NCBI GenBank assembly: GCA_946188345.1
Contig: CAMHUI010000003.1
Location: 1 to 64,000 of the forward strand
Length of the DNA stretch: 64,000 nucleotides
Origin: an uncultured Prevotellaceae bacterium
Lineage (GTDB): Bacteria; Bacteroidota; Bacteroidia; Bacteroidales; Bacteroidaceae
Direction of reading: 5' to 3'
The stretch's first letter is position 1, and each line of letters opens with the position of its first letter. Position numbers and translations under genes: made by a program. The notes beneath the pieces were generated by a model. That model did no database searches, was not told the DNA's origin, and saw nothing but the letters and a program-made list of their open reading frames with translations. Positions 6,081-51,422 of this stretch are shown here, one piece after another.

Positions 6081-8894
6081 ATGAGCATCAGATTAAACAA
6101 AGCCATCAGTGAACTTAACATCGGACTCCAGACGGCAGTGGAGTTCCTGACGAAGAAATACGGATTGCCCGAAGACTCCCTCAGCCTGACTTCGAAGATT
6201 GACGACGAGCAGCATCAGTCACTCATTGAAGCCTTCAAGCAGGACAAGGAAGTGCGGTCGCAGGCCGAGAAACTCTTCCCCAAGAAGCCCAAGGAAAAGA
6301 AGCCCCAGGCCGAGCCCAAGGAGACAAGGGCCGAGAGCCTGCTCGGCTCCACGCCCCAACAGAAGTTCAATCCGTTGGGTAAGATAGACTTGGACACCCT
6401 TGGAAAGAAGCCTGCGCCGAAAGAGTCTGCTGCTCCCCAGCCCGAGCCAAAAGCCGAGCCCGAAACAAAGGCCGAGGCTGCTGCCGTCAGCCCCAAGCCC
6501 GAGACAACTGAGAAACCAAAGAAAGCAGAGAAGCCTGAAGCCACCGCTACAGTCGAGAAGAACGAACCTGTTGAGCAACCCGTGGCTGAAGAAAAACCTG
6601 TATCACCGGAGGTTTCTGAAAATTCCGAGCCCACTGAGCCCGCTGAGAGTTCTGAAGTCTTCCAGACCAAAAACGAGAAGAAGCTTCTCGCTACGCCCAA
6701 GGTGAACGTTCTGGGCAAGATAGACCTCGACTCGCTCAACCAGAGCACCCGTCCTAAGAAGAAGTCTAAGGAGGAGCGCCGCAAGGAGCGCGAGGAAAAA
6801 GCCCAGCAGTCGCGCGACGGCAAGAAGAAGCGCGAGCGCATCAACAAGGTGCGCGTCGACATCAATGCCGAGGCCAACCAGCCGCAGGGCAACCCCAACA
6901 AGGGCAGCAACGGTCCGAAAGGCGATGCCGGCGGCAAGAAAGATAAGAAAAAGAAGAATCGCGGACGCAATCAGAAGCCGCTCGAGGTAAACGAAGAGGA
7001 CGTGGCACGTCAGGTCAAGGAGACGTTGGCCCGACTCACCAACAAGCAGACCCAGAACAAGAAGGGTGCCAAATATCGCAAGGAGAAACGCGAAGCCGTT
7101 CAGGAGCGCCTCAACGAAGAGATGGCCGAACAGGCTGCAGAGAGCAAGACGCTGAAACTCACCGAATTCGTCACCGTCAGCGAGTTGGCCACGATGATGA
7201 ACGTCGGCGTCACGCAAGTCATCTCTACGCTTATGTCCGTCGGCATCATGGTCAGCATCAATCAGCGCCTCGACGCCGAGACCATCAACCTCGTAGCAGA
7301 CGAGTTTGGCTTCAAGACCGAATACGTCAGTGCTGAGGTGCAGGAAGCCGTCAGCGAGGAAGCCGACGATGAGAACGACCTCGTTCCGCGCGCACCGATA
7401 GTGACTGTCATGGGACACGTAGACCATGGTAAGACCTCACTTCTCGACTACATCCGCAAGACCAACGTCATCGCCGGTGAGGCCGGCGGCATCACTCAGC
7501 ACATCGGTGCCTACAACGTTAAACTCGAGGACGGCCGACGCATCACCTTCCTCGACACCCCGGGACACGAGGCCTTCACCGCCATGCGAGCCCGTGGAAC
7601 ACAGGTTACCGACATCGCCATCATCATTGTCGCTGCCGACGACTCCGTGATGCCCACCACCAAAGAGGCCATCGCCCACGCACAGGCGGCCAACGTGCCC
7701 ATGGTGTTCGCCATTAATAAGATAGACAAACCCGGAGCCAACCCCGACAAGATACGCGAAGACCTCGCCCAGATGAACCTTCTCGTAGAGGAGTGGGGTG
7801 GAAAATACCAATGTCAGGAAATCTCCGCTAAAAAAGGCCAGGGCGTCAGCGAACTGCTCGAGAAAGTACTCCTCGAAGCCGAGATGCTCGACCTGAAAGC
7901 CAACCCCAACCGCAAGGCCACAGGTAGCATCATCGAGTCCTCGCTTGACAAGGGTCGCGGCTATGTCTCCACGGTGCTCGTCTCCAACGGCACGCTGCGC
8001 GTCGGCGACAACGTCATCGCCGGAACCGCCTGGGGACGCATCAAGGCCATGTTCAACGAGCGCAACCAGCGCATCACCGAAGCCCGTCCAGCCGAACCCG
8101 TCATCATACTTGGACTCAACGGAGCACCCACTGCCGGCGACACCTTCCACGTCCTCGACACCGAGCAGGAAGCACGCGAGATAGCCAACAAGCGCCTCCA
8201 GCTGCAGCGCGAACAGGGGCTGCGCACTCAGAAGCGACTCACCCTCAGCGATATCTCACACCGCATCGCACTCGGATCCTTCAAGGAACTCAACATCATC
8301 GTCAAGGGCGACACCGACGGCTCCATCGAAGCCCTCAGCGACTCCTTCATCAAACTCTCAACCGAGAAAATCAAGGTCAACGTCATCTACAAGGCAGTCG
8401 GACAAATCTCCGAGAGCGATGTCACCCTGGCTGATGCTTCCGACGCACTCATCGTAGGCTTCCAGGTGCGCCCCTCAGGAGCCGCCCGCAAGCTGGCCGA
8501 CAACGAAGGTGTGGAAATCAACACCTACTCCGTCATCTACGATGCCATCGACGACGTGAAGTCGGCCATGGAAGGCATGCTCGACAAGGTGAAGAAGGAA
8601 GTCGTCACCGGACAGGTGGAAGTCCGCCAGGTCTTCAAGATTTCCAAGGTAGGCACCGTAGCCGGAGCCATCGTCACCGAAGGCAAGGTGCACAACAAAG
8701 ACAAGGCCCGCGTCATCCGCGACGGCATCGTCGTCCACACAGCACCCATCGGAGCACTCAAACGCTATAAAGACGACGTCAAGGAGGTTGCCACCGGCTT
8801 CGAGTGCGGTATCTCACTCTCCAACTACAACGACATCCTTGAAGGCGACATCCTCGAGACCTTCACCGAGATAGAAGTACAGCAGACCCTCTAA
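6081..8894 (+). CDS. infB: Translation initiation factor IF-2
   Basis: [25 protein letters not shown]...[34 protein letters not shown]; start at [17 protein letters not shown]. Confidence 0.97.
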
Positions 8895-8902
8895 CCCCCC
8901 CA

Positions 8903-8980
8903 AAAAGTGAAAAGTGAAAAACGAAAAGTAAAATAACCGCATCCCGCGACGACTTTTCATTATTCACTTTTCACTTCCCA
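8903..8980. repeat. Inverted pair of 7-bp-period A-rich/T-rich arrays (AAAAGTG-type / CTTTTCA-type)
   Basis: AAAAGTG AAAAGTG AAAAACG AAAAGTA ... CTTTTCA TTATTCA CTTTTCA CTTCCCA; arms pair 23/25. Confidence 0.75.
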
Positions 8981-10917: not shown

Positions 10918-11564
10918 CAATGGAAATCCCCAATGACAACACGCAACGGCTCCTGGAAATGCTGGAGAACCCTCAGGCATACAACGAACAGGAAATCGGC
11001 GAAATCATCAGCCACGACGAAGCCACCTACCATCTCCTGACCGAGGTAAGGCAGAGCTTTCGTCAGCAAGACTCGACCGACATCGATGCTGCTTGGAAAA
11101 GCTTTTGTAAAAAGAGGGACGAGCGGAGAGCTGCCAGGCAGCCACACCATCGTCAGTTCCGCAAGATGGTCGCCGCCTTCATCTCATTAATATGTATCTC
11201 AGGCATCACATTTGCCGCCATTCAGATTGTTCACCGCCAATCAACCAAGTCGCCAGCCATCCAGCCCGCAGACGTGGTGGAGGCAAAACCCGTAGAGTCA
11301 CAGCCCGATACCCTCACCCTCTCTCCAAAAGAAGGCACGGACAACGACAGCAGGACCTTCGACAATATAGCCTTTGAAATCATGCTGACAGAGATAGCCA
11401 GCCACTACGGCGCAGACGTAGTCTTCGAGAACGAGACTGTCAAGCCGCTGCGCTTCTACTTCGTATGGTATCCCGGGCAACCAATGGAAAAGGTCGTCGA
11501 GACCCTCAACCATTTCGATAGCATTAACATCGTCATCGACAACAATAAGCTGATTGTGAAATGA
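10914..11564 (+). CDS. Membrane-anchored DUF4974/FecR C-terminal-like protein (putative anti-sigma)
   Basis: ATGA overlap with the sigma gene; single TM segment; C-terminal IMLTEIASHYGADVVFENETVKPLRFYF...VETLNHFDSINIVIDNNKLIVK resembles DUF4974. Confidence 0.75.
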   Translation: MTMEIPNDNTQRLLEMLENPQAYNEQEIGEIISHDEATYHLLTEVRQSFRQQDSTDIDAAWKSFCKKRDERRAARQPHHRQFRKMVAAFISLICISGITFAAIQIVHRQSTKSPAIQPADVVEAKPVESQPDTLTLSPKEGTDNDSRTFDNIAFEIMLTEIASHYGADVVFENETVKPLRFYFVWYPGQPMEKVVETLNHFDSINIVIDNNKLIVK

Positions 11565-14221
11565 GACGTATCACCCACCTGCTCCCAATCCTTCTCACCG
11601 CCATTACCCTACCGTCAACAGCCCAGCGCATCACCCGCAGCTACGACAACATATCCATAGCTAAAGCCCTGCGGCAACTCAATGAAGAGACAGACCAATA
11701 CACCATTCATTTCCTCTACGACGAGCTGGAAGACTTCCGCGTGACAACTACCGTAAAAGGCAAGTCCCTACCCGAAGCCGTCAGGCAGATGATTGGTTTC
11801 TACCCCATCCGCATGACCATTGTCACAGACCAGAACTCGGAAGCTCCGGGAAAACAGCGACAGCAGATCATCGTAGAATGTACCCATAAGACCGACATCC
11901 ACCTGACTGGTACCGTCGTCGACGAGCACGGGCTGCCTGTGGCCTATGCCAACATCTCCCTTTTCCTTCCAGCCGACACCACCCTGCTCAGCGGTGGCGT
12001 ATCCAACGAGAGCGGCTACTTCGCCATCCCCTATGAAACACCCATCAGCTCTCAACCCTCAACACTAAACTCTCAGCACTCAACTCTAAACTCTCATGAA
12101 GGCGTGCTGGCCCGCATCTCCTGCATAGGCTATAAGACTATCTGGCGACGATTCCTGCAGCCCGATGCCGGCACCATCCGAATGAGCTCCCATACCTATA
12201 CCATCAACGGCACGGTGGTGCAGGGCGAACGGCCGAAGGTACAGCTCCAAGGCAACTCCCTCATCATGAACGTAGAAGGAACCATCATGGAACGGCTTGG
12301 GACAGCAGAAGACATCCTCTCGCGAGTGCCCACCATCACAAAGAAAAGAGATGGCTATGAAATTTTAGGTAAAGGATCTCCGCTCATCTACGTAAACAAC
12401 CGCAAGCTGACCGAGCTGACCGAGCTGCGCAATATCCCTTCAGACAACATCCGCAACGTCGAAGTGGTTCAGAACCCTGGTGCCCGCTACGATGCCTCAG
12501 TCAATGCCGTCATCATCATCCACACCAAAAGGGCTGCCGGAGAAGGTCTCGGCGTAGAAATGAACTCATGGAGCCGCAAGGGACATGGCGTTGCCAACAA
12601 TGAGCGGGTCAATCTGACTTACCGAAGAGGAAACCTGGAATTATTTGCAAACCTTTTTGGAGCTTACAACAAACGCTTGGAGAAAGGCGAGTTTGAACAA
12701 ACTGTCTATGCAGACACGCTGTGGCAAATAGCCAACAAGCAAAAAGACAACATCTACAATCCATTCCTTGAAGGCCGCTTCGGATTCAACTACCAACTGA
12801 ACGACCAAAACTCTTTTGGCGGGTTCTATCAGAACACCTACGACTACGTGAAGACTTGGAGCAGCAACGACGACATCCTGCAAGCCAACGGCTCCCTGTA
12901 TGACCGTTTGCAGAACAGCAGTGTCAACAGGGCCAAAGGTGCGCCAAAGCATCAGGCAAATATCTACTACACGGGTAAGGTTGGGAAATTCGGCATCGAC
13001 TTCAATGCCGACTATACCTATCGTGATCAGCAGAATCGCAACCGGCAACAAGAACTGAGCGACGCGCATGAAGACCGCAACGAGAACACCTATGCCCATA
13101 CACGCAGCAGGATGGTGGCAGAGAAACTCTTCGTGACGCATCCTATAGGGAAAGGGCAGTTAGAAATAGGAGAGGAATATACCAATACCCGATGGAACAG
13201 CAGTTTCGAAAATGTAGAGGGTTACATCCTTGGCGGCAACAACGAGCAGCATGAGCAGGCCATAGCTCCCTTTGTTGAACTGCGTCAGCAGATGGGCCGC
13301 CTACGGCTGGCTGCCGGTATGCGCTATGAGCATGTGACGTCGGAATACTTTGTCAGCCACATCCGGCGCGACGACCAGTGCCGGAGCTATGATGAATTCT
13401 TTCCTTCGGCATCCTTGTCTGCTTCTGTAAAGAATCTGCAGTTTTCCTTCAGCTATGCCAAACGTACCAAGCGCCCCAGCTACTGGCAGCTGAGCAGCGA
13501 TGTCATCTACGAGAACCGGCTCAACCGACAGACGGGCAATCCCTTCCTGAAACCTGTCAAATACCATAACGTAAGCTCAATGACCATGTGGAGGTGGCTC
13601 TATTTCAATGTCAGCTTCACCCACTGCGTCGACCCCATCCTCTATACGGCAGAAAGTATTCCAGAAGACTCGAAGGTGAATCTTGTAACCTACAGGAACT
13701 ACGACCACGCCGACTGGATCATCATGACGCTGGGAGCTCAAAAGAGCATCAAATTAGGACATGAGGCCTCATGGACACCACAGTACAATGTCTCGCTCAT
13801 GAAGCCCTGGTTAAAGGCGGCGTTCCTGGACGGACAGAAAAGCTTCAACAAGCCCATGCTGTCGCTGCAGTTGGGCAATAGCGTCATGCTCAAGCACGAC
13901 TGGCTGCTGCAAGCCGACTTCAACGTGCATTCTCATGGCTGTACAGGGGCTAATGCCGTATCAGCATGTACCAACCCTTTGCTCACTCTCAGCGTCAGCA
14001 AAGAGTTCTGCAGACAGCGGCTTCATGTCAAGTTAGCTGCTGAAGACGTCTTCAATGGCGGCATCGGACGGTTTACACTTTACAGCAACCGATTCGTGTT
14101 TCGCAAGACCGAGGACAGCGATTCCCGCTGCGTGACGCTCTCCCTGCGCTACCGATTCAATGTCACCCCGTCGAAATATCGCGGTACGGGTGCCGGTAAT
14201 GCAGAAAAGAGCAGGCTATGA
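11561..14221 (+). CDS. Outer-membrane beta-barrel receptor with STN-like and CarboxypepD_reg-like N-terminal domains
   Basis: ATGA overlap with upstream gene; STN-like N-terminus, LTGTVVDEHGLPVAYANISL, plug-like region, barrel ending LSLRYRF. Confidence 0.85.
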   Translation: MRRITHLLPILLTAITLPSTAQRITRSYDNISIAKALRQLNEETDQYTIHFLYDELEDFRVTTTVKGKSLPEAVRQMIGFYPIRMTIVTDQNSEAPGKQRQQIIVECTHKTDIHLTGTVVDEHGLPVAYANISLFLPADTTLLSGGVSNESGYFAIPYETPISSQPSTLNSQHSTLNSHEGVLARISCIGYKTIWRRFLQPDAGTIRMSSHTYTINGTVVQGERPKVQLQGNSLIMNVEGTIMERLGTAEDILSRVPTITKKRDGYEILGKGSPLIYVNNRKLTELTELRNIPSDNIRNVEVVQNPGARYDASVNAVIIIHTKRAAGEGLGVEMNSWSRKGHGVANNERVNLTYRRGNLELFANLFGAYNKRLEKGEFEQTVYADTLWQIANKQKDNIYNPFLEGRFGFNYQLNDQNSFGGFYQNTYDYVKTWSSNDDILQANGSLYDRLQNSSVNRAKGAPKHQANIYYTGKVGKFGIDFNADYTYRDQQNRNRQQELSDAHEDRNENTYAHTRSRMVAEKLFVTHPIGKGQLEIGEEYTNTRWNSSFENVEGYILGGNNEQHEQAIAPFVELRQQMGRLRLAAGMRYEHVTSEYFVSHIRRDDQCRSYDEFFPSASLSASVKNLQFSFSYAKRTKRPSYWQLSSDVIYENRLNRQTGNPFLKPVKYHNVSSMTMWRWLYFNVSFTHCVDPILYTAESIPEDSKVNLVTYRNYDHADWIIMTLGAQKSIKLGHEASWTPQYNVSLMKPWLKAAFLDGQKSFNKPMLSLQLGNSVMLKHDWLLQADFNVHSHGCTGANAVSACTNPLLTLSVSKEFCRQRLHVKLAAEDVFNGGIGRFTLYSNRFVFRKTEDSDSRCVTLSLRYRFNVTPSKYRGTGAGNAEKSRL
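12049..12097. repeat. Intragenic heptamer array, 7 contiguous units
   Basis: CTCTCAA CCCTCAA CACTAAA CTCTCAG CACTCAA CTCTAAA CTCTCAT; encodes SQPSTLNSQHSTLNSH. Confidence 0.9.
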
Positions 14222-14362: not shown

Positions 14363-14406
14363 CTCTATTGAGTCTGGAAGACCGGGAATCTATCTTTATT
14401 CTATAA

Positions 14407-14441
14407 CTCTCAACTCTAAACTCTCAACTCTAAACTCTCAC
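14407..14441. repeat. Heptamer array, 5 units
   Basis: CTCTCAA CTCTAAA CTCTCAA CTCTAAA CTCTCAC, 6 bp from the stop codon of the GH43 gene. Confidence 0.9.
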
Positions 14442-17510: not shown

Positions 17511-17566
17511 GTTGAGAGTTGAGGGTTTAGGGTTTAGAGTTTAGAGTTTAGGGTTGAGAGTTGGGA
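17511..17566. repeat. Heptamer array, 8 units, filling the sufD-GH43 intergenic space
   Basis: GTTGAGA GTTGAGG GTTTAGG GTTTAGA GTTTAGA GTTTAGG GTTGAGA GTTGGGA. Confidence 0.93.
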
Positions 17567-17568
17567 GT

Positions 17569-18915
17569 TTATCTGCACAGCTTGCAGCCCTTGCAGGTGT
17601 TGAGTTCGCCTCGGAAGCGCTTGTCGACGAGGTAGTGCAGCCGGTCGCGCAGCTGCGGCAGCTGTATCTGGTCGATGACTTCCTTGACGAAGGCCTCCTG
17701 GAGGAGCAGATAGGCTTCCTGCCGGGAGATACCTCGCTGCTGCATGTAGAAGAGGGCGGCATCGTTGAGTTGGCCCACGGTGCTGCCATGGGAGCACTTC
17801 ACGTCGTCAGCATAGATCTCAAGCATTGGCTGGGTATACATGCGTGCCTCATTGCTGACGCAGAGGTTCTGATTGCGCATCTCAGATGCCGTCTGCTGGG
17901 CATCGGGCTCCACCAGCACGCGGCCTGCAAAAGCACCCGTGGCCTGGTTGTTCAGGATGTATTTATAGAGTTCATTGCTCGTGCAGTGGGGAACGGCATG
18001 GGTGATGAGGGTGTTGTTGTCGACGTGCTGCTGCTTGTCGGCGATGACGCAGCCGTTGCAGGTGCACTCGGCCCCCTCGCCGCGCATGACGAGGTTGAGC
18101 TGGTTGCGCGTGGTGCCGTTGTGCAGCGTCAGCACGTTGTGGTGGACGTGGCTGTCGCGCTGCTGCTCGATATAGACATTGCTCACGCGTACATTCTTAT
18201 AATGGGTTTCCTCCAGGGAGTATAGTTCCAGGGAAGCCCCCTGGCCCACAAAGACTTCCATGACTTCGGTGGTAAGGAAGCTGACGTCGTCGGCAGCATG
18301 GTCGCAGAAGAGCATCTTCAGCGAGGCGCCTTCCTCCAGCACGATGAGCACGCGTCGGTTGGCCATGAGGCCTGCCGAGGGCGACTTCAGGATGTTGATG
18401 ACCTGGATGGTCTTCTCTACCTTGACGCCTCGCGGCACATAGACGAAGAGCCCGTCTTGTGCCAGCATCGTGTTCAGCTGGGTCACGCCGTCGGCAGCCT
18501 CACCTGCAAGCCGGTGGTAGAGGCCTTCGGCCTGGTGGACATGCTGTGCCAACGACCCTACCACGACACCCTCGGGCAGCTGCCGATGGTCGGTCTCCTG
18601 ATAGAAGCTGTCGTTGACCATGAAATAGAGTGCTGTCGAGAGATTGGGTACGTCGCATCGGAAGGCCTCATAGGGGTTCACAGGGATGTTCAGGCGCCGC
18701 AGGTTCAGTCCATAGTCTGGCTCGAAGAGCTTGCCGACGTTGGTGTAGCGGTAGCGCTCCACCTTGCGTGTCGGGAATCCCTGCTGGCGGAACTGCTCAA
18801 AGGCGGCATCACGGCAACGGTTCATCACACCGCAAGAATGGTCGCACAGTGTTGCCCGCTCCTGTTCGTAGAGGTCTATGTATTGCTGCTCAGGACTCAA
18901 TTTCTCACTTCTCAT
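17569..18915 (-). CDS. sufD: Fe-S cluster assembly protein SufD
   Basis: SufD-like sequence (ALYFMVNDSFYQETDHRQLPEGVVVGSLAQ; CSHGSTVGQLNDAALFYMQQRGISRQEAYLLLQEAFVKEVI) adjacent to sufC/sufB. Confidence 0.93.
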   Translation of the reverse strand: MRSEKLSPEQQYIDLYEQERATLCDHSCGVMNRCRDAAFEQFRQQGFPTRKVERYRYTNVGKLFEPDYGLNLRRLNIPVNPYEAFRCDVPNLSTALYFMVNDSFYQETDHRQLPEGVVVGSLAQHVHQAEGLYHRLAGEAADGVTQLNTMLAQDGLFVYVPRGVKVEKTIQVINILKSPSAGLMANRRVLIVLEEGASLKMLFCDHAADDVSFLTTEVMEVFVGQGASLELYSLEETHYKNVRVSNVYIEQQRDSHVHHNVLTLHNGTTRNQLNLVMRGEGAECTCNGCVIADKQQHVDNNTLITHAVPHCTSNELYKYILNNQATGAFAGRVLVEPDAQQTASEMRNQNLCVSNEARMYTQPMLEIYADDVKCSHGSTVGQLNDAALFYMQQRGISRQEAYLLLQEAFVKEVIDQIQLPQLRDRLHYLVDKRFRGELNTCKGCKLCR

Positions 18916-36294: not shown

Positions 36295-36321
36295 GGGTGA
36301 GGGGTTAGGGCTTAGGGTCAA
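36295..36321. repeat. Degenerate heptamer array (3-4 units)
   Basis: GTGAGGG GTTAGGG CTTAGGG TCAACGG. Confidence 0.45.
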
Positions 36322-36350: not shown

Positions 36351-36413
36351 TTTTCTCGCCATGGCAGAGTGTAAGTAAGCTAACTCTGCTCATTTGGCTG
36401 AACGGAAACATTG
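36351..36413 (+). repeat. Dispersed repeat (GCTCTGCTCATCTGGCTTAACG family), copy overlapping the 3' end of the HTCS gene
   Basis: TTCTCGCCATGGCAGAGTGTAAGTAAGCTAACTCTGCTCATTTGGCTGAACGGAAACATTG; compare 50113-50176. Confidence 0.7.
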
Positions 36414-39400
36414 ATATACTCCGTCGGGCTTACTCCCATCTGCTTCTTGAAGGCCTTCGAGAAGTAACTCGGGTCGGAGAAGCCGGTGCGATAGGCTGTC
36501 TCTGAGACATTGTAGCCCTCGCGCAGGAACTGGCAGGCCAGGTAGAGGCGGCGCTTGCGGATATAGTCGCCCATCGACATGCCGGTAAGGCTCTTCATCT
36601 TGGTATGTAGCAGTGAGCGGCTGATGGCCAGCTGGCTGGTGATGTCGGCAATAGCGAAGTCGCTGTCAGCGATATGTTGCTCGATGACTTCGTTGAGCTG
36701 GCGGATGAACGTCTTGTCTATCTCGCTGAGCAGGGTGGTGTGATGAAAGTTGAGAGTTGAGAGTTGAGGGTTGAGAGTTGAGGGTTGAGGGTTGGGGGCT
36801 GAGGGTGAAGAGTTAAGAGTCGAGGGTTGAGAGTTGAGGGCTGACGGAACATCAAGCTCGTCGACGATTTCCTGCTGACGGGTTTGCAACAGTTGCATGA
36901 TGTTGTTCACCTGGAGTTCGAGTATCTGGGGATCGAAGGGCTTGGAGACATAGGCCTCGGCACCGCTCTTATAGCCTATGGCCACATCGTCTTGCTCGCT
37001 CTTGGCCGTGAGCAGGATGACGGGGATATGGGAGGTGTGGACATCGCCCTTCAGCTGCCGGCAGAGTTCTATGCCGTCCATCTCGGGCATCATCACGTCG
37101 CTGACGACCATCTGCACAGCCTCAGTACGGGCTATCTCAAGCGCCTCGCGCCCGTTGCTGGCCGTCAGGACGGTGTACTTAGAGGAGAAATAATTGGACA
37201 GGAAGTCGAGCAGGTCGCGGTTGTCGTCGACGATGAGCAGCGTACCTGGTGTGGGGCTCTGTGTGGTGGGTGTGGAGTGCCGGGTGTTGAACTCGTCGAT
37301 ATCGCTCAGGGTCGACGAGAACTTATATTCACTCAGGGGCACGATGGTCTTGTCTTCATTCAGATAGCTGGCTGTCGGGAATGCTGAGTCGGACACATTG
37401 AGCCACACCGTGAACTTGGCTCCATGGCCTGGCTCACTCTCCACACTGACGCGACCCTTGTGAATCTCGCTGAGACGCTGCACCAGAGAGAGACCGATGC
37501 CCCAGCCACTGTTGTCGGCATTGTAGCCGCGCTTGGTCTGATAGTAGTGGTTGAAGATGCGACCCTGTTCTTCCTTGGCGATGCCGATGCCTGTGTCCTG
37601 AACGGAGAGACAGAGATAGGCTGCATTGGGGGAGGTAGGTGAGGGGGCAGACGTGGACTCGGTGATGCTGCCTTTCACCATGATGCGGCCACCACTGGGG
37701 GTGAACTTCATGGCGTTGGACAGCAGGTTACTGACGATATGCTCAACATAGGAAGGCGAGAACCACACTTCCTCTCCGTTGTCTTCAAACTCCGAGGTCA
37801 GCGTCAGGCCTCGCTCGCCGGCCATCTCGTGGTAGGGATAGAGTATCATCTCGATGAACTGCAGGGGGTTGCCCTTCTGAACGTAGAAGGGGAAGCTGTC
37901 GGTCTCGACTTTGTTGAAGGTGACGAGCTCGTTGATGAGGCTCTCCATCTTGCGTGTGTTCTTGATGGCCATGTCGAGATGGCGGTTGGAACTTTCGTCG
38001 AGTTGCTGACGGGAAATGCTTCTCAGCGGTGCCACGATGAGCGACAGAGGCGTCTTCAGCTCATGGGATATATTAGTAAAGAAGTCGAACTTTGCCTTGT
38101 CGATGGCTTCAATCTTGTCGCGCTCCATGTTGGCCTCACGCACTGCGCTGCGCTCCTTTTCGCGGATGGAGAAGAGCCGATAGGCCACATAGGCCAGTGC
38201 GCACAGCAGAAGCAGATACAGCAGATAGGCGGGTTTGGAACGATAGAAGGGTGGCTGCACCACGATGCGGAGCGCCTTTACCGGACAGTCGTCCCAGCCT
38301 TCGTTGGCATCGTTGGCACGAAGGAACAGCTGATAGGTCCCGGGCGGCAGCTTGTAGCCCGTGAACTTTCGCTCGCTGCCCACATTACGCCAATCCTTGT
38401 CGATGCCGTCGAGGCGCACCTGATACTCGATGCTGGTGGTGTTGCCCGGCATGATGACACCATACTCGATGCTGAACAGCCGCGCCTGGTCGTAGCTCAG
38501 CGTCAGCGACTGGGTCTCGTCAAACTCACCCTTCAACGGCGAACCTTCTACGGAGGCCGTCATCTCCTGATTGTTCACCAGCAGATGCTTCAGATGGACC
38601 GTCAACGGACCTTTCCTGCTCGACAGCGTCAAGGGGTTGAACGAAATCATACCATTCACCGTTCCGAACGTCAGCAGGCTGTCGCTGGTAGCCAGGGCCG
38701 ATGAGAAGTTGAACTGATTGGTGGGCAGACCGCTCTCCGTGGTATAACGCATCAGCGTCTCCGTGTCCATGGAGTACTGATAGAGGCCCTGACTGGTGCT
38801 CACCCAGAGACGACCCTTCACATCGCTGATGATGCTGCACACCGTGATATGCGGCAGGAGCATGTCGCTCTCAATAGACTCAAATGAATCCTTCTCTAAG
38901 TCCATATACTGCAGGCCGCAGTTGTTGGTACCTATCCAGAGACGGTTGCTACCTGGCTGCCGATAAAGGCTGGTGACATAGTTGTCGCGCAGCCCGCCGG
39001 CAGCCTTCTGCCAATAAGTGATGCGGTTGTCGGCTGAGGCAATCCGGTAGAGGCCATATTGGCACATGCCCACCCAGAGGTTATCCTCAGCATCGACAAA
39101 GAGCGTATAGACAAACTGATTGTCGAGCGTATTGTCGCCCAGCATCTTGAACTGGTCCGTCTCCCCATCGTAGTAGTAGAGCCCCTTGGTCGTGGCAAAC
39201 CACAGCCGTCCATTCTGCTGACAGGCAATACTGAAGAAAGAGTTGCTCTTCAGTCCGTTGGTGAAGTTATAGCGTCGAGCAGCCCCGGTGCGGAGGTTAT
39301 AGCGGAAGAGTCCGCTTCGGAAGGTGCCAATCCACATCTCTCCCCGGCTACGGTCGTAGTAGAGGCTGTGGACATTCGTTCCCAGCTGGGGCAGCCTGTC

Positions 39401-40531
39401 GAAGAGCGTCACCGTGCCGGCCTGGCGATTGTAGATGTTCAAACCGCCGTCCTCTGTGGCAATCCAGAACACACCAGGCTCAGTCTCTACCATCTGCCGA
39501 GGCACCTTGCCGTGAATCTGCCCACCTTGCAGGCCTGGCTCCAACCACTGGAACTGCTTGTTGTTGCTCAGCAACACGTCCACTCCACCAAAGTAGGAAC
39601 CTATCCAGATATTATCGTCTACATCGCTGATGATGGAATAGATGGCATTGTCACTCAGGCGATAGGGGTCGTCAAACCGATGGCGCACAATCTCGATGTG
39701 TCCGTCAGGATGGACGATAGTCACGCCCTTCTCCGTTCCCAGCCAGATGCGCTGCTGGGCATCCTCGGCTATGACGCGAACGATGCCGTTGGAGATCATC
39801 GCCGGTGAGAGCACTTCCACCCTGCCGTGGCCGTCCATCGTCATCACACCTTCGCCGTTGCGGCCCAGCCACAAACGCCCCTGAGAGTCGTAGAAGATGG
39901 GCAGGATGTCGTCCGTGCCCGTCAAGAAGTCGGGTTGCAGGATTGCATCAAGCGATGTCACACGCGTGAGGGCAGCATCATAGCAGAACACCGAGCGATT
40001 GGTCGCTACATAGACGTTGTCGGCATCATCGACCGTCATCGATGCAACGAAATAGCCCGATGTAGACTCCTGAGAACGGAAACAGTCGGCCTGCTCGTCA
40101 TATACCCATAGTCCCATGCCGCCGCAAATGATGCGCCCGGAATGTTGCTGCACCACAGAATTGACGATGCCGCCCGTATCGTAGGAACGGAAGTCGTCGG
40201 TTTCAGGCCTGTACCGACAGATGCCACGCTGGGTGCATACCCAGATGCGCCCGTTGCCATCGACAAAGAGCCGTATCACGAAGTTGTGGTTGAGCGAGCA
40301 GCTGTCGGCATCCTCATGGAAATAGCTTCTGATGTCATAGCCGTCGTAGCGGGCCAGACCATTACGGGTGCCCATCCAGATGTTGCCCTTGGCATCCTGT
40401 GCCAAGGCCTCCACCTGCTGATGGGGCAGGCCGTCGCTGCTCGCTATATGCCGAAACCGGTAGTTGACGCTCCAAGAGAGCAGCCAACAACAACACAGCA
40501 ACACTGTCAGACCAAAACGCTTCACGCTCAT
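36380..40531 (-). CDS. Hybrid two-component system regulator (HTCS: propeller sensor, Y_Y_Y, HisKA, HATPase, REC, AraC HTH)
   Basis: Reg_prop-like repeats (GNIWMGTRNGLARYDGY, GRIWVCTQRGICRY); FTNISHELKTPLSLIVAPL; GWGIGLSLVQRLSEIHKG; LLIVDDNRDLLDFL...VSDVMMPEMDGIELC; AraC HTH at C-terminus. Confidence 0.96.
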   Translation of the reverse strand: MSVKRFGLTVLLCCCWLLSWSVNYRFRHIASSDGLPHQQVEALAQDAKGNIWMGTRNGLARYDGYDIRSYFHEDADSCSLNHNFVIRLFVDGNGRIWVCTQRGICRYRPETDDFRSYDTGGIVNSVVQQHSGRIICGGMGLWVYDEQADCFRSQESTSGYFVASMTVDDADNVYVATNRSVFCYDAALTRVTSLDAILQPDFLTGTDDILPIFYDSQGRLWLGRNGEGVMTMDGHGRVEVLSPAMISNGIVRVIAEDAQQRIWLGTEKGVTIVHPDGHIEIVRHRFDDPYRLSDNAIYSIISDVDDNIWIGSYFGGVDVLLSNNKQFQWLEPGLQGGQIHGKVPRQMVETEPGVFWIATEDGGLNIYNRQAGTVTLFDRLPQLGTNVHSLYYDRSRGEMWIGTFRSGLFRYNLRTGAARRYNFTNGLKSNSFFSIACQQNGRLWFATTKGLYYYDGETDQFKMLGDNTLDNQFVYTLFVDAEDNLWVGMCQYGLYRIASADNRITYWQKAAGGLRDNYVTSLYRQPGSNRLWIGTNNCGLQYMDLEKDSFESIESDMLLPHITVCSIISDVKGRLWVSTSQGLYQYSMDTETLMRYTTESGLPTNQFNFSSALATSDSLLTFGTVNGMISFNPLTLSSRKGPLTVHLKHLLVNNQEMTASVEGSPLKGEFDETQSLTLSYDQARLFSIEYGVIMPGNTTSIEYQVRLDGIDKDWRNVGSERKFTGYKLPPGTYQLFLRANDANEGWDDCPVKALRIVVQPPFYRSKPAYLLYLLLLCALAYVAYRLFSIREKERSAVREANMERDKIEAIDKAKFDFFTNISHELKTPLSLIVAPLRSISRQQLDESSNRHLDMAIKNTRKMESLINELVTFNKVETDSFPFYVQKGNPLQFIEMILYPYHEMAGERGLTLTSEFEDNGEEVWFSPSYVEHIVSNLLSNAMKFTPSGGRIMVKGSITESTSAPSPTSPNAAYLCLSVQDTGIGIAKEEQGRIFNHYYQTKRGYNADNSGWGIGLSLVQRLSEIHKGRVSVESEPGHGAKFTVWLNVSDSAFPTASYLNEDKTIVPLSEYKFSSTLSDIDEFNTRHSTPTTQSPTPGTLLIVDDNRDLLDFLSNYFSSKYTVLTASNGREALEIARTEAVQMVVSDVMMPEMDGIELCRQLKGDVHTSHIPVILLTAKSEQDDVAIGYKSGAEAYVSKPFDPQILELQVNNIMQLLQTRQQEIVDELDVPSALNSQPSTLNSSPSAPNPQPSTLNPQLSTLNFHHTTLLSEIDKTFIRQLNEVIEQHIADSDFAIADITSQLAISRSLLHTKMKSLTGMSMGDYIRKRRLYLACQFLREGYNVSETAYRTGFSDPSYFSKAFKKQMGVSPTEYINVSVQPNEQS
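36749..36839. repeat. Intragenic heptamer array, 13 contiguous units (GTTGAGA/GTTGAGG)
   Basis: Encodes SALNSQPSTLNSSPSAPNPQPSTLNPQLSTLN between the REC and AraC HTH parts of the HTCS. Confidence 0.95.
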
Positions 40532-40540
40532 ATCCCTCTA

Positions 40541-40575
40541 CTCTAAACACTAAACCCTAAACTCTAACCTCTAAC
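40541..40575. repeat. Heptamer array, 5 units
   Basis: CTCTAAA CACTAAA CCCTAAA CTCTAAC CTCTAAC, between the HTCS start (40531) and the next gene's stop (40581). Confidence 0.88.
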
Positions 40576-40580
40576 CCCCC

Positions 40581-51371: not shown

Positions 51372-51420
51372 CACTAAACTCTAAACTCTAAACTCTAAAC
51401 TTTCAACTCTAAACTCTAAA
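51372..51420. repeat. Heptamer array, 7 units, next to the SusD stop codon
   Basis: CACTAAA CTCTAAA CTCTAAA CTCTAAA CTTTCAA CTCTAAA CTCTAAA. Confidence 0.93.
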
Positions 51421-51422
51421 CT

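Follow-up and report, generated by a model that had tools for sequence, protein, structure and literature searches.

Tandem arrays of a 7-bp unit are dispersed through the genome of an uncultured Prevotellaceae bacterium, and they probably persist inside genes only where they are free of stop codons and preserve the reading frame, so that they yield disordered linkers. One such case is an array in the gene of a sugar-sensing hybrid two-component system (HTCS) regulator, which was found in the window, the whole stretch of 64,000 nucleotides that was analysed (contig CAMHUI010000003.1, positions 1 to 64,000; Table 1). A sequence-only reading had treated this locus as special; it is rather one instance of widespread heptamer arrays.

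The array was called by Tandem Repeats Finder at 36744-36838 with period 7 (13.6 copies) and at 36744-36844 with period 14. It is therefore real, as had been read from the sequence, but the earlier figures of 13 units at 36749-36846 give way to about 14 units and the bounds in Table 1. On the minus strand the units are CTCTCAA or CCCTCAA together with several degenerate ones, amounting to 13.6-14.4 copies with about 80% match. The 101 bp consist of direct repeats in a single orientation, and no palindromic element of about 150 bp is present. The longest exact period-7 tract measures 21 nt, which is shorter than the exact tracts of 25-39 nt in several intergenic arrays of the same genome.

The open reading frame of the regulator runs through the array in frame, and the array peptide is SALNSQPSTLNSSPSAPNPQPSTLNPQLSTLN, exactly as first quoted. 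It forms a linker of about 33 residues rich in S, T, P, N, Q and L with a heptapeptide period. Pfam placed it between the receiver and the AraC-type HTH domain, again in agreement with the first reading. The protein has the domain set of its family, with a Reg_prop/Y_Y_Y sensor, HisKA, HATPase, receiver and AraC HTH in one chain, and the neighbouring genes include GH43, GH5 and SusC/SusD-like genes. An AlphaFold model of residues 1084-1383, computed with 23 homologues, gave pLDDT values mostly above 90 for the receiver and the HTH domain and about 50 for the linker, which had no secondary structure. This is suggestive of a disordered linker, low pLDDT being no proof, and it fits the earlier proposal that the 7-nt DNA repeat becomes a linker of heptapeptide period.

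Table 1. Heptamer arrays in the window and the domains that flank the array of the HTCS regulator.
Feature	Position	Strand	Remarks
Second in-frame array	12045..12096	+	in outer-membrane beta-barrel gene 11561-14221; peptide SSQPSTLNSQHSTLNSH directly after CarboxypepD_reg domain
Intergenic CTCTMAA-family array	14405..14440	+	Tandem Repeats Finder and own scan
Intergenic CTCTMAA-family array	17511..17571	-	occupies entire gap between two genes
Short GGGTTAG heptamer repeat, 3' of HTCS gene	36295..36317		Tandem Repeats Finder, 3.3 copies
HTCS regulator, 1383 aa, host of the array	36380..40531	-	Reg_prop, Y_Y_Y, HisKA, HATPase_c, Response_reg, HTH_18
AraC-type HTH, aa 1299-1372, downstream of linker	36416..36637	-	Pfam PF12833, E 2.4e-19
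Degenerate heptamer array	36744..36844	-	Tandem Repeats Finder and own scan; absent from 20 orthologues
Receiver domain, aa 1099-1205, upstream of linker	36917..37237	-	Pfam PF00072, E 1.9e-26
CTCTAAA-type heptamer array	40534..40578	+	fills nearly all of the 49-nt gap from GH5-like gene to HTCS start codon
Intergenic CTCTMAA-family array	51374..51422	+	adjoins stop codon of susD-like gene

To collect orthologues, 299 genomes of the same genus were searched at the DNA level and the encoded C-terminal regions were aligned, which left 20 clear orthologues. The alignment, which had been proposed with the first reading, showed that in all 20 the repeat segment is missing and the linker is short and conserved, following the pattern EIVxTxExDIxATSLSELDK. 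The regulator of the window is longer than its orthologues by 32-33 residues, approximately the length of the array. Judged from these alignments, the array is a lineage-specific insertion. In a second search, over 398 genomes of the genus, the best orthologues had about 72-80% DNA identity, and no closer relative was found, nor one with the array in the same gene. Likewise, no close relative with an empty site at this locus was found, and the step that created the array was not seen at base level. The nearest related sequences on named contigs were mostly from uncultured Prevotella, Prevotellaceae and other Bacteroidales, which suggests a Prevotella-like source. All genome comparisons used one genome per species.

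The dispersal of the arrays was examined in the window and in a larger sample of its genome, 464 kb made up of the window plus 400 kb. The window contains six arrays of the CTCTMAA family and ten dinucleotide shuffles contained none, which excludes chance. An unbiased scan for repeat periods in the 464 kb returned 22 arrays of period 7, compared to 0-2 for each of the periods 4-6 and 8-12, and no period-7 array was obtained from a shuffle of the sample. Period 7 is the sole clearly enriched repeat period in this genome. The consensus unit was AACTCTC, AAACTCT, AACCCTC or AAACCCT in 16 of the 22 arrays, with AACTCTC and AAACTCT dominant. The sample contains 19 CTCTMAA arrays.

A wider search for an exact three-unit pattern was positive for 20 of the 121 family genomes, which belong to 9 of 30 genera. 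Of 297 genomes drawn from across the phylum, 2 had the pattern, and one of these was the genome of the window itself. In such searches the reversed pattern is not an independent control, as CTCTCAA read backwards is a rotation of the same unit. A search for the translated repeat within the genus matched 184 of 299 genomes. This number is an upper bound, since coiled-coil-like proteins whose natural period is LSTLNAQ are matched too. These proteins belong to a protein family with an LSTLNAQ coiled-coil-like segment in front of a shared KEEYIG motif (L163, contig C10 of the same genome, 57000-63000; L151, L153, L155, L167 and L168). The segment matches the heptamer at the DNA level in some members, and L163 is without a heptamer array in our scan. 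Four exact CTCTMAA units were also present in 31 stretches of a viral collection (L186-L216), some of them in long open reading frames. The idea of phage-carried arrays that these suggested was set aside, as host DNA in those contigs is possible.

Several observations concern the placement of the arrays outside genes. We compared the positions of intergenic CTCTMAA arrays to the ends of genes, using the four intergenic CTCTMAA-family arrays of Table 1 and further loci (L229, L233, L234, L236, L244, L246, L251, L252 and L255). A gene start or stop lay within 10 nt of 16 of the 18 arrays, where 7.5 were expected, and none of 20000 random placements in the same gaps reached this number. Part of the excess may reflect the simple choice of start codons by the gene caller; 10 of the arrays touch stop-codon ends. 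On contig C8 of the genome of the window, two heptamer arrays of opposite orientation lie between convergent genes (L233, 2302-2348 and 2373-2418) and could pair as a long hairpin. A short array of AAAAGTG (8903-8933) and one of ACTTTTC (8952-8976), units that are mutually reverse complementary, follow an open reading frame ending at 8894 of the window.

Arrays inside genes show a strong strand bias. Genic and intergenic arrays were separated with a simple home-made codon-score gene caller. By this assignment, 7 of the 19 CTCTMAA arrays in the 464-kb sample are inside genes, all 7 in the sense orientation, and in 400 kb of a relative (G072) 15 of 22 arrays are inside genes, 14 sense and 1 antisense. 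Thus, CTCTCAA is on the sense strand in 21 of the 22 in-gene arrays (binomial p 1e-5). The antisense repeat has stops in every frame, and a sense-strand bias is therefore the expected bias of survivors. Long open frames over TCAATTN arrays in the sister species G085 and G141 look non-genic and were left out of the counts.

A second bias concerns the fifth position of the unit, where an A creates a TAA codon in one phase. In the genome of the window this A occurred in none of 17 units in the stop phase; it was present in 7 of 33 units in the other two phases, where it is harmless, and in 46 of 88 intergenic units of the 464-kb sample (Fisher p 2e-5 for the stop phase against intergenic units and 0.08 against the harmless phases). 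The HTCS array has no CTCTAAA units, which had been noted from the sequence together with their frequency in intergenic arrays. The accompanying statement that all three frames of its sense strand are open was wrong for this array: it would hold for a pure CTCTCAA array, but the degenerate unit CTCTTAA gives TAA in one of the other frames.

The host proteins are varied. The DNA-repair protein Mfd of the genome of the window (L233, 10411-13965) accounts for three of the seven in-gene arrays of the sample; they are in frame, with the first two (aa 54 and 124) close to the N-terminus and the third (aa 1010) separating the helicase domain from the TRCF domain. In relatives, in-frame arrays were found in a MurF-Alr fusion (three arrays, G072), a MetH-like protein (two), a CCA-transferase-like protein and a SpoU-type methylase, and in all these proteins, Mfd included, domains lie on either side of the arrays. 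An alignment of MurF-Alr from ten genomes showed that the arrays are insertions; at the corresponding positions other species have no extra sequence or carry low-complexity inserts of a different kind. The CCA-transferase-like gene of another relative (G173, L147/L166) carries two adjacent repeat inserts, one of ENSELGI and one of LSTLNSQ.

We propose that 7-bp tandem arrays of CTCTMAA and near variants arise or spread in this Prevotella-like genome and in its relatives within the family. The HTCS gene would have gained its array at the junction of receiver and HTH once its lineage had diverged from the sampled species, by expansion in 7-nt steps that was followed by purifying selection. Survival of the array would then have depended on the lack of in-frame stops on the sense strand and on a total length that preserved the frame. 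The outcome would be a disordered tether between the receiver and the HTH domain, lengthened by about 33 residues, probably with a small effect on the function of the regulator. The spread of the arrays may have involved local expansion, copying between arrays or some other activity. A dedicated or element-like process in this Bacteroidales family might write or copy heptamer arrays of one family into many sites, genes included, so that the heptamer satellite would time and again supply essential enzymes and regulators with new disordered linkers in frame. We regard this as rather unlikely. It is compatible with the presence of one heptamer family at unrelated loci, with the restriction to period 7 and with the patchy occurrence across genera, and the same data are also compatible with ordinary slippage that favours 7-nt steps.

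The insertion at an interdomain junction and the unstructured linker in the AlphaFold model would also agree with selection of a longer tether because it alters how the receiver positions the HTH domain. The longer tether could have given the regulator a gain of function. However, arrays also occur in loops of unrelated enzymes, so tolerance alone can account for the site in the HTCS gene, and we consider selection for linker length distinctly improbable.

Even less likely, in our judgement, is a contingency locus, the function suggested in the first reading, at which slipped-strand mispairing would add or remove units and thereby switch the DNA-binding domain on and off or tune the length of the linker. 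Its mechanical premise was borne out in silico: when one or two units were added or removed at the pure end of the array, the protein was truncated at aa 1268-1290, before the HTH domain, and changes by three units held the frame. Between the sister species G085 and G141, whole-unit differences were seen at the two orthologous TCAATTN arrays examined, one clearly intergenic, with a difference of three units (L266/L283) and of one unit (L290/L293); none was found for in-gene CTCTCAA arrays. In H. influenzae, hmw1A is regulated by 7-bp repeats (PMC8262952). Against a switch, the HTCS array is degenerate, with the short exact tract described above. Similar arrays are carried by mfd of the genome of the window and, in relatives, by murF-alr, metH-like and CCA-transferase-like genes, and in such likely essential genes out-of-frame slippage should be costly. 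A switch by gain or loss of units is thus mechanically possible at the HTCS gene but unsupported as a function.

That the repeat was misassembled in a draft genome deserves very little credence: the assembly has 52 contigs and an estimated completeness of 56.65%, but the frame is intact on both sides of the HTCS array, Mfd of the same genome has its three similar in-frame arrays, and similar ones occur in several other genomes. Least credible of all is an old conserved Ser/Pro-rich linker whose amino acids dictate the DNA repeat, since, although low-complexity peptides can impose periodicity on DNA and proteins of the LSTLNAQ period are present in the same genomes, the same heptamers make up intergenic arrays and the lack of the linker in 20 of 20 orthologues refutes it for those sampled.

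Stop-free, frame-preserving survival of dispersed arrays offers a route from non-triplet DNA repeats to protein linkers. As 7 mod 3 equals 1, one heptamer on the sense strand gives the same peptide in every frame, and arrays of the right unit are therefore tolerated wherever their total length keeps the frame. If this is general, Prevotella-like genomes rich in arrays amount to natural experiments on the insertion of disordered segments into essential enzymes, MurF-Alr and Mfd among them. Since array length, stop-phase bias and the choice of loops can be measured over hundreds of genomes, the origin of bacterial 7-nt repeats becomes a testable question. The results also caution against taking every coding repeat as a phase-variation switch.

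Heptanucleotide repeats are known from other bacteria. Direct repeats of TAACTGA were described in Beggiatoaceae, Cyanobacteria and five Bacteroidetes (MacGregor 2015, PMC4679880). They resemble the present arrays in the 7-bp unit, the many dispersed arrays, the patchy phylogenetic distribution and the frequent position near gene starts, but their unit is TAACTGA (complement TCAGTTA) and not TCAACTC or TCAATTN, and they are mostly intergenic, whereas a large share of the arrays studied here is in frame inside conserved genes. Searches of the open-access literature turned up no description of heptamer arrays in Prevotella, which is no proof of novelty. The 7-bp repeat of the hmw1A promoter of Haemophilus influenzae, with 13-24 copies in the tested constructs, tunes transcription (PMC8262952); it shares the tandem 7-bp unit with the HTCS array but lies in a promoter, whereas the HTCS array is coding and degenerate.

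Dispersed repeats in coding sequences have precedents as well. Rickettsia palindromic elements are inserted in frame in unrelated metabolic genes and do not destroy them (reviewed in PMC10969869). The heptamer arrays are likewise in frame within unrelated genes, but the Rickettsia elements are palindromic, about 150 bp long and encode a conserved peptide, whereas the arrays are tandem heptamers of variable length. In archaeal Borgs, tandem repeats in genes encode disordered amino-acid repeats and coexist with intergenic repeats (PMC9879509), and the HTCS array similarly encodes a segment predicted to be disordered. Borgs are extrachromosomal, and the repeats within their genes are described as perfect in amino-acid sequence; the arrays studied here belong to a single degenerate heptamer family that occupies many loci of bacterial genomes. 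Compared to other HTCS proteins of Bacteroidales, the regulator has the same domain order and differs in the 33-residue, repeat-encoded linker between receiver and HTH. In conclusion, what sets the present arrays apart from the known heptanucleotide repeats is the combination of a non-triplet unit, a single family across many loci and a frequent in-frame presence in conserved genes.
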